Assembly: GCF_029338515.1 (NCBI RefSeq)
Contig: NZ_CP119988.1
Location: 3,720,001 to 3,784,000, forward strand
Source of the DNA: Haloglomus litoreum
Lineage (GTDB): Archaea; Halobacteriota; Halobacteria; Halobacteriales; Haloarculaceae
Length of the DNA: 64,000 nucleotides
Reading direction: 5' to 3'
This document shows, one piece after another, positions 24,253-28,729 of the stretch (positions are counted from its first letter, which is position 1; each line of letters begins with the position of its first letter). Made by a program: the position numbers and the translations under genes. The notes beneath the pieces are model-generated. The model saw only the letters and a list, made by a program, of their open reading frames with translations, had not been told where the DNA came from and did no database searches.

Positions 24253-25250
24253 ACTGGACCGGCTAACGAGAGAGGGACTTGTACGGAACTCTCGCCCCCT
24301 CTCACGGTTCTGCTGGCGACGATGGAGATTCGTCCGACTCCCTCGCGCTCTCTCACGGTTCTGCTGACGACGACAGAGACACCTACGAAGCCCTCGCGCT
24401 CTCGACTGCCGTCAGACGTTCCTGCTCGCTTCGCTGTCGCCGGAAATCTTCGATTTCCGGAATGACGAGAGAGCTTCGCTCTCTCGAACCACGCGGGCTG
24501 CGACTGACGTTGCTCGGCCTTCGGCCTCGCCGCCCGCGGCTCGCTGCGGTCCTCGGGCGCCAGAGGCGCCCTGCGGTCCTTGCGTCGTCCTCAGAAATCG
24601 GAGATTTCTGATGGGCTGCGGGAGAGCTTCGCTCTCCCGAACGCCGGGGGCGGGTCGAGAGCGCTCGCCCTTCGAGTCCGCCAGGACGTTATCGGTGCCA
24701 CGGGCGCAGCGGCCCTGCCCTTCCCCGGGTCGCGCGCCGTCAGAGCAAGCTCTGACGAGCTCTCGTTCGCTTCGCTCACGAGAACGGCCTCGCTTTCGCT
24801 CGGCACGCGCGGCCCGGCCGGAGAGCGGTTGCTCGGCCGGCCGGTTCCGTGAACAGGAAGCGCGCTCGCGCCCCTGCTGTGGAGACCGCGAGCGGAGCGA
24901 GCGTGTCGGAACACCCCGGCGCGAGCGCGGGGAGGTGTGGGGACACCCTGCTCCGCTGGAACCACCACACGCGTCGCTCGATGCAACCAGCAACAGGGCG
25001 GGACTGAAAGGGGCCGCCCGCCTCGACCGCTCCCGGACGAAGCAAGCACCGCAGGGAGCGAACGGGGTGAGCGACCGAGGCGCGCAGCGAGTCCCGGAGC
25101 GTCGAGCGGGCGGGGGCTTTCTACACGGGTGACTCTGTTGGAATCCTCGGTCGCTGATAGTTTGTTAGGGCTGTGCTGACTATAGAGGTTGGATGCAGCA
25201 CGGGTAGTTGGGCACCCAAGCGTTATTTTCGATACTCGTAAACGACAAGT
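24253..25250. other. About 1 kb non-coding region dense in short hairpins
   Basis: No convincing gene is seen; the open frames here are Arg/Ser-rich and carry no family signature. The stretch holds a 30-bp imperfect direct repeat starting CTCTCACGGTTCTGCTG (24299 and 24350, 51 bp apart) and many stems. Examples are CCGGAAATC/GATTTCCGG (24440-24460), CGAGAGAGC/GCTCTCTCG (24466-24486), TCAGAAATC/GATTTCTGA (24591-24611), CGGGAGAGC/GCTCTCCCG (24619-24639) and GTCAGAGC/GCTCTGAC (24739-24756). Several have a TTC loop. It ends with the structured repeat at 25000-25123. Confidence 0.6.
25000..25123 (+). repeat. Structured repeat element, copy A (GGGACTGAAAGGGG...GGGGGCTTTCTA)
   Basis: A 124-nt element with a close relative at 58908-59030. 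Both start GGGACTGAAAGGGGCCGCC and end GGCGGGGGCTTTCTA, and share internal blocks GGACGA-GCAAGCAC and GCGCGCAGCGAG. The ends pair: GAAAG with CTTTC, GCCCG (25016-25020) with CGGGC (25107-25111), and CTCGAC (25022-25027) with GTCGAG (25101-25106). The same stem forms in copy B with different base pairs, which supports a selected structure. It could be a non-coding RNA or a non-autonomous mobile element. Confidence 0.65.
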
Positions 25251-25664
25251 ATGGTCTCCGAGCGGACGTGGGCTAACGCCAGTCGTGGGCTCGTGTTTCT
25301 GCTTATATATGGGGTCGTCACCGGGGCTCTCGGAGCATTCATTCCGCAGTTCCACCCCTACCTGCGGGTCGTCGCTGGACTGGGACTCACGCTAGGGATT
25401 CTCGGGGCGGTCGACGTCCTCCCTCAGCTGATTCGCGGTGGCGGACTGGCCCTTGATACGAATAGCTACCTCTACTCCGTCCGTGGTCTGGTCTGGCTAA
25501 GTCTCATCATCTTGCTTACTGCCCTGATTGCCGACCTGCTCCGAGCCACTACCACGCTCCCGGACACCGTTGCCATCATCACGGGGTTCGCAGTCGGTGT
25601 CGTCCTCGTACTGGGCCCAGTCGTCGGCTACTACTGGCGTCGGTCGACTGCACAGGTCCAGTGA
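25251..25664 (+). CDS. Four-span membrane protein, orphan
   Basis: The 137-residue protein has four predicted spans at about 12-32, 38-60, 78-97 and 105-127, starting MVSERTWANASRGLVFLLIY. No family is recognised. Codon use is less GC-biased than in neighbouring housekeeping genes, and it sits just after the hairpin-dense region, which suggests acquisition. A short-repeat half unit (25174-25200) lies in its upstream region and a full pair follows its stop. Confidence 0.65.
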   Translation: MVSERTWANASRGLVFLLIYGVVTGALGAFIPQFHPYLRVVAGLGLTLGILGAVDVLPQLIRGGGLALDTNSYLYSVRGLVWLSLIILLTALIADLLRATTTLPDTVAIITGFAVGVVLVLGPVVGYYWRRSTAQVQ

Positions 25665-25717
25665 ATTTCGTTGAAAACGGACTCCTCTTTCTGTTCCCCT
25701 ACGATTCGGGTCAGCCG

Positions 25718-25810
25718 TGGGAGATACGCGCTCTCTATTCGGCACGCTCTCAGATACTTGCTCAGATGCTGTCAGGAGGGCCGTGACCGATATAGAGGGA
25801 GAGTTCAGCA
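25718..25810. repeat. Paired 27-nt repeat, pair 1
   Basis: Two 27-nt units start at 25718 and 25784, exactly 66 nt apart. The second begins TGACCGATATAGAGGGAG and ends TTCAGCA; the first is diverged (GATACGCGCTCTCTATTC core, GGCA end). The cores are roughly inverted: CTCTAT in the first against ATAGAG in the second. The pair lies between the convergent genes at 25251 and 25876. Confidence 0.5.
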
Positions 25811-25875
25811 CGCCCCCGCCTTTTGTCTCACACTGTATGAGTTGAACAGACCAATGAGAAGATCGTGCGAGTGTA

Positions 25876-26319
25876 TCAGAGTGTCTCGGTGGTAATCGAC
25901 ACATCACTTGGAGCAGTGACGGTGATTACGAGGACCTGCTGCTCATCAGAGGGGCTGAATGATACGGAATGTTCCGTAGTGACTCGCTCGTCGTCTTGAT
26001 GAATTGTAGCGTTGATGGTGTACTCCCAACGTTCAGAGCGAGAGACCGGAATGACATCATGCCGAATCAAAGGAGCTGCCGCAGCTATGTCTGTGCTGTC
26101 AGTAATCGAGCCATCCTCGGACCGCCCATTTAATCGATACAGCCCAAAGTACTCCGTCCCGCTGGGTGTTTGGATCTGGAGAGAGGCTTTCGATAGATTA
26201 GATGCACCTGCGTCAGATGAACGAGAGGGCGTTGATTGACTCGTCCGTTGGAGAGCTGAGCACCCTGCAACTGAGGAGAGTGCTCCTGCGAGGACGATGA
26301 GCGTGGACCGTCTATTCAT
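25876..26319 (-). CDS. Small lipoprotein, orphan
   Basis: The 147-residue precursor has a lipobox, MNRRSTLIVLAGALSSVAGC, with lipidated Cys at 20. A Ser/Thr-rich linker follows, then a beta-rich domain containing IQTPSGTEYFGLYRLNGRS, RWEYTINATIHQDDE and VLVITVTAPSDVSITTETL. The domain looks like a compact extracellular beta-sandwich. Base composition is clearly lower in GC than the chromosome average here. No function is recognised. Confidence 0.65.
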   Translation of the reverse strand: MNRRSTLIVLAGALSSVAGCSALQRTSQSTPSRSSDAGASNLSKASLQIQTPSGTEYFGLYRLNGRSEDGSITDSTDIAAAAPLIRHDVIPVSRSERWEYTINATIHQDDERVTTEHSVSFSPSDEQQVLVITVTAPSDVSITTETL

Positions 26320-26443
26320 ATAGTAAGATGCCTGTTAGTTCGGGATAAATCTTCTGCGTCGGTGAACAGAGAAATTTAACACGGTGTTAGACTCACGCTC
26401 TTCATTGAACAATTCAGTTCGGTCACGGCAAACGCGAAACCGG

Positions 26444-26536
26444 TGACCGACTTGCGCCCTGTATGCAGCAGCACCTTTTCGACTTACTCAGGGTCTGTCA
26501 GTAACGCTCTGACCGATACAGAGCGTGTATGCAGCA
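26444..26536. repeat. Paired 27-nt repeat, pair 2
   Basis: Units start at 26444 (TGACCGACTTGCGCCCTG, ending TATGCAGCA) and 26510 (TGACCGATACAGAGCGTG, ending TATGCAGCA), again exactly 66 nt apart. The core GCGCCCTGTAT of the first is the near inverse of ATACAGAGCG in the second, so the pair could fold back. The 39 nt between units are unrelated to the spacer of pair 3. It lies between two minus-strand genes. Confidence 0.6.
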
Positions 26537-26566
26537 GTCACAGTAACCAGTACAGAGGCTTCTCAG

Positions 26567-26833
26567 TTAGGCATTTGAATCACTACGAGACGCTGTTTGC
26601 CCGATGAACGTCCTCACGACGGATGCGCTCAAAACGGAGAGAACCAACAGTATACTCAACCCAGCGAACAGGTGGATTAGATTGTCCAGATACACGCCCG
26701 AGGTAGTTGCCGAGAAGAGATAGAGATGAGCAGTAAGAAGAAGAGAGACGAACATGAGCCAACGTCTGATTGATTCCAGTACCTTATCTGAGTGCATTAA
26801 AGGAGAGTCAGCTTCGTTTCGTTTAGTCTTCAC
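26567..26833 (-). CDS. Small two-span membrane protein, orphan
   Basis: The 88-residue protein begins MKTKRNEADSPLMHSDKVLE and has two spans at about 26-46 and 53-74. It is relatively rich in Ser, Lys and Leu and low in acidic residues for a haloarchaeal protein, with lower-GC codons, which suggests a foreign origin. No homologous family is recognised. The ATG at 26833 gives the full polar start; the later Met at residue 13 is an alternative. Confidence 0.55.
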   Translation of the reverse strand: MKTKRNEADSPLMHSDKVLESIRRWLMFVSLLLTAHLYLFSATTSGVYLDNLIHLFAGLSILLVLSVLSASVVRTFIGQTASRSDSNA

Positions 26834-26849
26834 GATTACCCAAATTCAC

Positions 26850-26942
26850 TGACCGACTCGCGCCCTACATCCAGCAACGTCTGAAAAACCTCCCGGGCGT
26901 CGGGCAGAAAGAACGTGACCGACCCAGAGGGTGAGTCCAGCA
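26850..26942. repeat. Paired 27-nt repeat, pair 3
   Basis: Units start at 26850 (TGACCGACTCGCGCCCTA, ending CATCCAGCA) and 26916 (TGACCGACCCAGAGGGTG, ending AGTCCAGCA), again 66 nt apart with a 39-nt spacer. As in pair 2, the first unit carries the GCGCCCT core and the second the AGAGGG core. It lies in the intergenic stretch before the gene at 27064. Confidence 0.6.
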
Positions 26943-27063
26943 GGACTACCTCGTTTGTTCCACATAGAGGTGAGTGAACTCTCTGCTCACTGTACCTGCG
27001 TATCGACCGCTAAAGACCCCATAATGACCATGGTTTTTCTGACTTTCTAGTGACGTGTATGGT

Positions 27064-27423
27064 ATGGGTGAACGAGAACTCGATCCGGTCGAACAGTTTC
27101 GTCGGGTCGGAATCGGACTGGTACTCGGTGGGCTGGCCTTCGGTGGGCTGTCGTTCGGTGTCGATGCGGTTGTGAGTGGTGTCGTGCTTCTGGTTGCTGG
27201 TATCATCGTCTGGTGGGGTGAATATCGGCGGGAGGTGACTGTCGGGATTGGGGTCGGAATCGGCGTGGCTGGACTGGTCGCTCTCATCGACGTAGGAACC
27301 GACACCGGCTATGATGGGCTCCGACTGGCAGGATTCATTGTTGCGCTTGGTGTCGCGGATTACGTGCTTGCACCTGCCTACGGTAAAATCCAAGACGCCG
27401 GTGAACGGGTCAGGAACCGGTAG
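27064..27423 (+). CDS. Membrane protein, orphan (about three to four spans)
   Basis: The 119-residue protein starts MGERELDPVEQFRRVGIGLV and is very Gly/Val-rich, with hydrophobic segments at about 14-33, 36-52, 60-77 and 86-104. It has a charged loop (WWGEYRREV) and a basic C-terminus (KIQDAGERVRNR). The ATG at 27064 was preferred to GTG 27055. No family is recognised. A lone 27-nt repeat unit follows 50 bp after the stop. Confidence 0.6.
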   Translation: MGERELDPVEQFRRVGIGLVLGGLAFGGLSFGVDAVVSGVVLLVAGIIVWWGEYRREVTVGIGVGIGVAGLVALIDVGTDTGYDGLRLAGFIVALGVADYVLAPAYGKIQDAGERVRNR

Positions 27424-27472
27424 AAACCCTGCACTGAGTAAATCAGCATCTCGTGTTTTGCTGGAAACGCGA

Positions 27473-27499
27473 TGACCGATACGCGCCCTGTATCTTGCA
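27473..27499. repeat. 27-nt repeat, single unit of the island family
   Basis: The unit begins TGACCGATACGCGCCCTG and ends TATCTTGCA, matching the first-type unit of the pairs at 25718, 26444 and 26850. No clear second-type unit is found 66 nt later, so this is a solitary or decayed copy near the right edge of the island. Confidence 0.45.
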
Positions 27500-27661
27500 C
27501 GCACATCCTGTCAAAGTCTGATCATTTCAACAGAGCCACACGGGTGCATCGTCGCAGTGGCCGTCACAAAGAGAGCGGGCGGGAGTCTTCAACAGCGCTC
27601 CACCGCGACCGTCGCCGAGAGGTCCATCTTCCACGACAACAGAACCCACGGAGACCCCGTA

Positions 27662-28729
27662 CTACTCCCGTTCGACCACACCGGTCACGGTGGCGGCCTC
27701 GTAGGCGGCCCGCTCGTTCACGCCGTCGCCGAGGATGGTGTAGCGGTCGCGGATGGTGTGGGCGGTCGTCACGGCCTCGAGGAAGTCCGCGTCGTCGATA
27801 CCCAGCCCCGCCGCCGAGGTGGGCGCGCCGAGGTTCTCCAGCGCGGCGCGGACGTTGCGCCACTCCCCGTCCTCGCCCGAGTGGAGGTACTCCGTGACGA
27901 GCGACGCCACGCCGACCTGGTGGCCGTGCAGCGCCGCACCCGGGGCGATGCGGTCGAGCTGGTGGGAGATGAGGTGCTCTGCCCCGGAGGCGGGCCGCGA
28001 GGAGCCCGCGATGGACATGGCCACGCCCGAGGAGACGAGGGCCTTCACGACGATCCAGGCGCTCTCCTCCAGCCCCCGCTTGATGGAGTCGGCCGCGCCG
28101 ACGAGCATCTCGGCGGTCATCTGGCTCAGCGCGCCGGCGTACTCGCTGTACTCGACGTTCTTCAGCCGGTGGGCCAGCTGCCAGTCCTTGACCGCGGTGT
28201 AGTTGGAGATGATGTCCGCACAGCCCGCCGTCGTCAGGCGCCACGGCGCCGCCGCCAGCAGTTCGGTGTCCGCGACGACCGCGAGCGGCGGGTCCGCGGC
28301 GACGGAGTGGCGCGTGTCACCCTCCGGGACCGACCCACGGCCGGAGACGATGCCGTCGTGACTGGCGGCGGTCGGGACCGACACCAGCGCCAGGTCCAGC
28401 TCGTCGGCGGCCATCTTCGCGATGTCGATGGGCTTGCCGCCGCCGATGCCGATGAGGAAGTCCGCGTCGGCCTCCCGTGCGGCCGCCATGACGTCCTCGA
28501 CGGCGCCGAAGGAGGCCCGCTCGACGATGGTGGTCTGCGGGGCGGTTCCCCGTGCCTCGAACTGCGCCGCGACCCGCTCGCCCGCCAGTTCGTTCGGCGT
28601 CGGCGAGGTCACGAGGAGGGGGGTCCCGCTCAGGTAGAGGTCGTCGACCGCCTCGCCCACCTGGTCGAGGACGCCGTGCCCCACGACGACGTTCCGGGGC
28701 AGCCGGATCCACGTCGACTTCTCGAACAT
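27662..28729 (-). CDS. egsA: NAD(P)-dependent glycerol-1-phosphate dehydrogenase
   Basis: This 355-residue enzyme reduces dihydroxyacetone phosphate to sn-glycerol-1-phosphate, the first committed step of archaeal ether-lipid backbones. The nucleotide-binding segment is LIGIGGGKPIDIAK (92-105), followed by VPTAASHDGIVSGRGSV (118-134). Metal-binding residues are expected in CADIISNYTAVKDWQLA (Asp near 172), GAEHLISHQLDRIA and LHGHQVGVASL. The length is normal for G1PDH and the start ATG is supported by the conserved MFEKSTWIRLPRNVVVG opening. Action is cytosolic. Confidence 0.95.
   Translation of the reverse strand: MFEKSTWIRLPRNVVVGHGVLDQVGEAVDDLYLSGTPLLVTSPTPNELAGERVAAQFEARGTAPQTTIVERASFGAVEDVMAAAREADADFLIGIGGGKPIDIAKMAADELDLALVSVPTAASHDGIVSGRGSVPEGDTRHSVAADPPLAVVADTELLAAAPWRLTTAGCADIISNYTAVKDWQLAHRLKNVEYSEYAGALSQMTAEMLVGAADSIKRGLEESAWIVVKALVSSGVAMSIAGSSRPASGAEHLISHQLDRIAPGAALHGHQVGVASLVTEYLHSGEDGEWRNVRAALENLGAPTSAAGLGIDDADFLEAVTTAHTIRDRYTILGDGVNERAAYEAATVTGVVERE

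Follow-up and report, generated by a model that had tools for sequence, protein, structure and literature searches.

Gene cassettes between two unlike facing sites on IS6-like platforms: a probable cassette-exchange system of haloarchaea

In the engineered recombinase-mediated cassette exchange, a cargo flanked by two unlike facing sites is cleanly replaced. Natural arrays of small single-gene cassettes are known from the integrons and CALINs including the archaeal ones, where the sites lie between the cassettes and the cassettes are shuffled among genomes (PMC9668308). The description of the archaeal integrons does not mention Halobacteria or haloarchaea. The Acinetobacter pdif (XerC/XerD) modules carry genes between inversely oriented sites and come in two alternating kinds (PMC13141974, PMC6449649). 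In haloarchaea, the MITEs, PATEs and SMRs of Haloquadratum are described as non-coding bar one ORF-bearing exception, and not as cassette flanks (PMC3119063).

Here, we analyzed a 64,000-nt stretch of the Haloglomus litoreum genome (the window) and found four cassettes within a single transposon (25131-27537), which has IS6-like terminal repeats and is flanked by a perfect 8-bp target duplication. The sequence-only reading had described a paired 27-nt repeat with a 66-nt spacing, and all eight units are there, as three pairs starting at 25718/25784, 26444/26510 and 26850/26916 and two singles at 25174 and 27473. The 27-nt repeat is genuine, and chance does not account for it. From the TGACCGA start and CAGCA end attributed to most units, those at 25718 (TGGGAGA start, CGGCA end), 25174 (TGCTGAC start) and 27473 (CTTGCA end) deviate.

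Each 27-mer is an imperfect dyad of 10+7+10, with two conserved 10-nt arms around a 7-bp core and with TG....A and its complement at the outer arm ends. The cores are of two unlike and mutually inverted types, as already read from the letters: type A is GCGCNCT and type B is AGAGGNT on the same strand, or ANCCTCT from the gene outward. Read in this direction, A and B have the same polarity, so the sites face each other across the gene. The order B-gene-A occurs four times in the window; hence, the units at 25174 and 27473, which seemed to stand alone, bound the first and the last cassette on their outer sides. The proposed layout of small genes separated by sites is supported, but its unit of a gene plus one foldable 93-nt site is actually B-gene-A with a 66-bp linker.

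The element is preceded by the left copy of the target duplication, ACACGGGT (25123..25130), which is identical to the right copy, ACACGGGT (27538..27545). The left platform end of the 43-nt type (25131..25173, plus strand) starts with the IS6-like terminal repeat (25131-25149; matrix score 25.5) and covers the 43 nt to B site 1, the outer left one (25174..25200; all eight sites are on the plus strand). Cassette 1 encodes a 137-aa membrane protein (25251..25664, plus strand) without any Pfam or NCBIfam match, its homology with L101 covering 25184-25732. It is followed by A site 1 (25718..25744), the 39-nt linker 1 (25745..25783), identical to the linker at 14642-14680 of L029, and B site 2 (25784..25810).

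Cassette 2 encodes a 147-aa lipoprotein-like protein (25876..26319, minus strand), and A site 2 (26444..26470), the 39-nt linker 2 with a CTGTCAG motif (26471..26509) and B site 3 (26510..26536) come next. This junction (26443-26536) has matches in plasmids of Haloarcula, Haloprofundus, Halorubrum and Halomicrobium. Cassette 3, for an 88-aa membrane protein (26567..26833, minus strand), leads to A site 3 (26850..26876), the 39-nt linker 3 (26877..26915) and B site 4 (26916..26942). Cassette 4 encodes a membrane protein (27064..27423, plus strand), and plasmids of Halobacterium sp. DL1 and Haloplanus have its gene at 92% and 82% DNA identity, respectively. After A site 4, the outer right one (27473..27499), the right platform end of the 38-nt type (27500..27537, minus strand), named for its distance to the site, contains the right terminal repeat (27519-27537; matrix score 27.6). 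None of the four window cassette proteins matched a Pfam family.

The region 24253-27672 is wholly absent from the genomes G001-G003, and the GC-rich flank is not conserved. A GC-rich repetitive stretch (24276-25120) between the amidase gene and the island is missing together with the island from G001-G003 at the same locus, and fragments of it match the Haloprofundus plasmid L213. Elsewhere in the Haloglomus genome, paired matches are repeated at constant distances of 99,739 bp (G000:C1 ~1.20-1.38 Mb) and 42,382 bp (3.24-3.30 Mb), so large direct duplications are present in this genome, either genuine or due to the assembly.

The sites are not confined to the window. The general degenerate site pattern gave 65 matches in the whole genome versus 1 for the reversed pattern, and the A-type pattern occurred at 18 places versus 0 for the reversed control. 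An iterated weight matrix produced 207 strand-wise hits (~100 sites) in the first loci versus 2 in the reversed sequence. The A-type pattern had matches in 11 of the 19 genomes searched, and in a sample of 146 genomes from across the order, 101 had A-type sites; the control gave few hits. The TGACCGA...CAGCA pattern alone was discarded as no better than its control; the core is needed.

The spacing is fixed far beyond the window. Among 509 collected sites, the A-to-B start distances below 200 nt are exactly 66 nt in 94/108 and 65–67 nt in 106/108. With the gap left free at 25–55 nt, an independent exact-pattern scan that covered 84,980 species genomes of bacteria and archaea returned 67 junctions in 65 loci. 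All of these records are from haloarchaea or an uncultured archaeon, and the gap is exactly 39 nt in 57 of the 67. The junction is restricted to haloarchaea. The sequence-only reading had proposed a search for the unit in other Halobacteria. Viral contigs searched with the strict pattern contained no junction. The linker has a conserved motif of its own, CTGTCAG.A. Its CTGTCAG (in 26471-26509 and others) is matched at the same place in the platform 38-nt end by CTGACAG, with the central base flipped.

The arrays recur as well. A second one in this genome (L029) has about eight cassettes, and plasmid pMHR1-2 of Haloprofundus sp. MHR1 has six consecutive cassettes in mixed orientation with one annotated gene each. 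Further arrays are found in a Haloarcula marina plasmid and in Halogranum, Halorubrum, Haladaptatus, Natronococcus and others. As to whether the unit separates single genes, which had been asked of the window, it does so in named plasmids (L213, Haloprofundus sp. MHR1). The B-to-A cassettes in these array loci (n = 86) have a median length of ~520 bp. Altogether, 84 cassette proteins gave matches to 67 Pfam families, mostly once each, the most frequent being HalOD1 with four members. An anti-phage island was considered and dropped, as PADLOC gave only single scattered hits among the 84 proteins.

The cassettes and linkers move, and the breakpoints lie inside the sites. At a locus shared by G001 and G002 of the same genus, the flanks are 96.8–97.7% identical; on one side the identity extends through the B site, on the other it begins with the first A-core base, and the cargo of 1,046 versus 2,304 bp in between is unrelated. 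This is the outcome named beforehand as support, the same site with different genes in close strains, and the gene-cassette array reading with recombination sites is supported by this swap. Cassette 1 of the window is found with 88% identity at another locus of the sister genome G002, and the homology (25184-25732) runs from the first B-core base into the A core.

The linkers tell the same from the other side. Fully identical linkers separate different genes in different arrays, and the identity runs from the A core to the B core. Among the site pairs with shared outside and different cargo, which are not independent events, the change falls within the site or no more than 2 nt ahead of it in 70/71. 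Because the site itself is conserved, the exact crossover within it is not resolved in every pair.

Elements of the IS6 family have GG tips with a cTGTt motif and make 8-bp duplications (PMC7986276), and the platform ends have GG-tipped cTGTt repeats and the 8-bp target duplication. The outer sites lie 38 or 43 nt inside the terminal repeat, GGCTCTGTTGAAATCCTCA. Usually the A site goes with the 43-nt end (31/41) and the B site with the 38-nt end (20/28). In the four complete elements of the window, L028, L224 and L274, the two ends have jointly changed places, which is the predicted result of whole-array inversion between the outer sites. The target duplication copies match at 8/8 bases in the window, L017 and L032 and at 7/8 in L042 and L261; of the 14 complete elements as defined by the matrix, 4 keep 7 or 8 of the 8 duplication bases.

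Transposases are found within such ends elsewhere. L212, a plasmid of Halorubrum sp. PV6, has an IS6 transposase flanked by similar terminal repeats without a duplication, and the IS5-family transposases of L087 and L209 share the terminal repeat of the platform. L087 (G000:C1:4205322-4208239) carries an IS5-family transposase gene with genes for an HTH protein and a HalOD-like regulator, has an 8/8 duplication and has no A/B sites. In L085, L122, L133 and L136, which come from several genera, genes for short tyrosine recombinases have the platform terminal repeat within ~50 bp of their 3′ end, as if the transposon preferred that target.

Our best explanation, which we hold with good confidence, is that the window has four mobile cassettes in an IS6-like transposon and that they are exchanged by a site-specific recombinase acting in trans. 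The anatomy, the fixed spacing and the terminal repeats with the target duplication are direct observations, and so are the movement of cassettes and linkers with breaks in the sites and the confinement to haloarchaea. A cassette is one gene in either orientation between facing B and A, with neighbors joined by A-39 nt-B. The recombinase, most likely of the tyrosine type, would exchange strands in the 7-bp cores. A circle or a second replicon that brings one linker and one gene would recombine at A x A or B x B, which would add a cassette and always restore the 66-bp spacing; the reverse reaction would remove one cassette.

Addition and removal in succession would replace the cargo without displacing the ends. 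Inversion of a cassette or the whole array would come from A x B recombination, but the A and B cores differ, so this reaction would require tolerance of core mismatch. The terminal repeats would let the platform be moved by a transposase in trans. We infer the enzyme class, the circular intermediates and the order of reactions.

Two other accounts of the sites do without a site-specific recombinase. In one, A and B are subterminal repeats of an IS6-like, non-autonomous transposon family and serve for transposase binding, as known from transposons with multi-site ends; the arrays would come from adjacent insertions and internal deletions and the cargo swaps from homologous recombination between the conserved ends. 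The terminal repeats and 8-bp duplications are real and the sites lie at a fixed 38 or 43 nt from the repeats, yet the internal junctions keep the 66-bp spacing in many genera with neither terminal repeats nor duplications. Moreover, the breaks fall in 27-nt sites, a length too short for efficient homologous recombination, and the A/B sites are missing from those IS5 and IS6 elements that have the same terminal repeats. We regard this account as improbable. The other, that the junctions are transcription terminators or structured RNAs between genes, is disfavored and has very little probability left. The A and B cores are inverted copies and good folding is seen at one of the three window junctions (z −2.3), but the folding z-scores of 79 junctions average about −1, and pairing of A is no better with its own B (71.6%) than with the B of other junctions (70.4%). 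The foldable 93-nt unit of the sequence-only reading is not supported on these two counts, and an attC-like folded structure was rejected on the same. An Rfam search yielded nothing relevant, the genes are in both orientations, and terminators would leave the cargo exchange at the sites unexplained.

For recombination at the sites, our leading guess on the enzyme is a tyrosine recombinase in trans, perhaps the universal Xer-like protein. A linked tyrosine recombinase, for which the array had been thought worth searching, is absent from the window array, and those that adjoin sites elsewhere do so inconsistently. No recombinase was found at 28 independent A-site loci. An Xer-like gene is present in 122/122 good-quality genomes of the order, so a host enzyme in trans, as for the Acinetobacter dif modules, is the simplest idea. 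That this chromosomal Xer-like recombinase acts and makes these archaeal dif modules is a tentative proposal, short of an even chance in our judgment. It fits with the universal gene, with the usual absence of a linked integrase from the sites and with facing sites and alternating modules as in pdif; against it, the site has 27 bp (10+7+10) rather than 28 (11+6+11), a chromosomal dif with matching arms was not identified and integrases adjoin some sites. These integrases might instead point to a dedicated enzyme, such as the short catalytic-domain-only type by A sites (L082, L085 and L218), in an integron-like system with the enzyme usually lost or elsewhere, which we consider rather unlikely. 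In this genome, 4 of the ~12 distinct integrase loci have a tyrosine recombinase at ~200 bp or less from a site, others are next to sites at single loci in other genomes, and the short type abuts a site or the platform terminal repeat in L085, L122, L133, L136 and L218. However, the adjacent integrases are of different subfamilies, the short type is missing from site-rich genomes, and the adjacency may only reflect transposon insertion into integrase islands. One integrase family as the obligate partner was rejected, since the short type is mostly away from sites and has no match in G099, a genome with 25 A-type sites. The ~200-aa tyrosine recombinases with the catalytic domain only (L082 2183-2803, L085 3275-3894) belong to a family widespread in the order.

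A search of an open-access library returned no earlier description of the system, which by itself does not prove novelty. We lean toward a further natural cassette system beside the integrons and dif modules, haloarchaea-wide, with two unlike facing sites, a 66-bp linker and IS6-like platforms. If so, the two unlike facing sites and the constant linker would give clean cargo exchange in the manner of the engineered cassette exchange. Such a system would be a route by which many small haloarchaeal genes that lack annotation are moved, shuffled and inverted, from genus to genus as well as between chromosomes and plasmids. With the site rule, cassette boundaries can be called in haloarchaeal genomes and gene flow can be traced. 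A two-site exchange tool for high salt may be gained, and a clear experimental question is posed, which recombinase acts on A and B.

Compared with the known systems, the IS6 elements and their MITEs share the GG tip with cTGTt and the 8-bp duplication, and in L212 the IS6 transposase lies within the same repeats, but they have no cassettes or A/B sites as the platform does. The Haloquadratum MITEs, PATEs and SMRs are likewise abundant small transposase-free repeats in haloarchaea (PMC3119063), and their own descriptions set them apart from the A/B cassettes. The engineered cassette exchange also uses two unlike facing sites, whereas the present system is natural and arrayed.

The integrons and CALINs are alike in the arrays of single-gene cassettes exchanged at sites. 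Unlike them, the haloarchaeal arrays have no IntI and no attC consensus or conserved hairpin; the nearest integrase (L085) scores 24.7 bits against TIGR02249 with a cut-off of 265, and a folded single-strand attC feature was not found over the 79 junctions. As to an attI site next to the integrase, some integrases do adjoin sites, but in no consistent arrangement. They have two sites of the double-stranded type per junction, and their genes are in both orientations.

The Acinetobacter pdif modules are alike in the inversely oriented sites around genes and the alternating modules, here B-gene-A and 66-bp linkers, as well as in module replacement and inversion, small accessory genes and no linked recombinase (PMC13141974, PMC6449649). 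The differences are the archaeal host, the 27-bp 10+7+10 sites in place of a 28-bp 11+6+11 site, the two types of core, each bound to its position, the reduction of one module kind to the constant 66-bp linker, and the location on chromosomes and megaplasmids inside IS6-like platforms. As IntI, attC folding and the pdif site size all failed to match, we file the system under neither the integrons nor the dif modules. Our best reading is a haloarchaeal site-specific cassette-exchange system that works like the integron cassettes or the Xer/dif modules.
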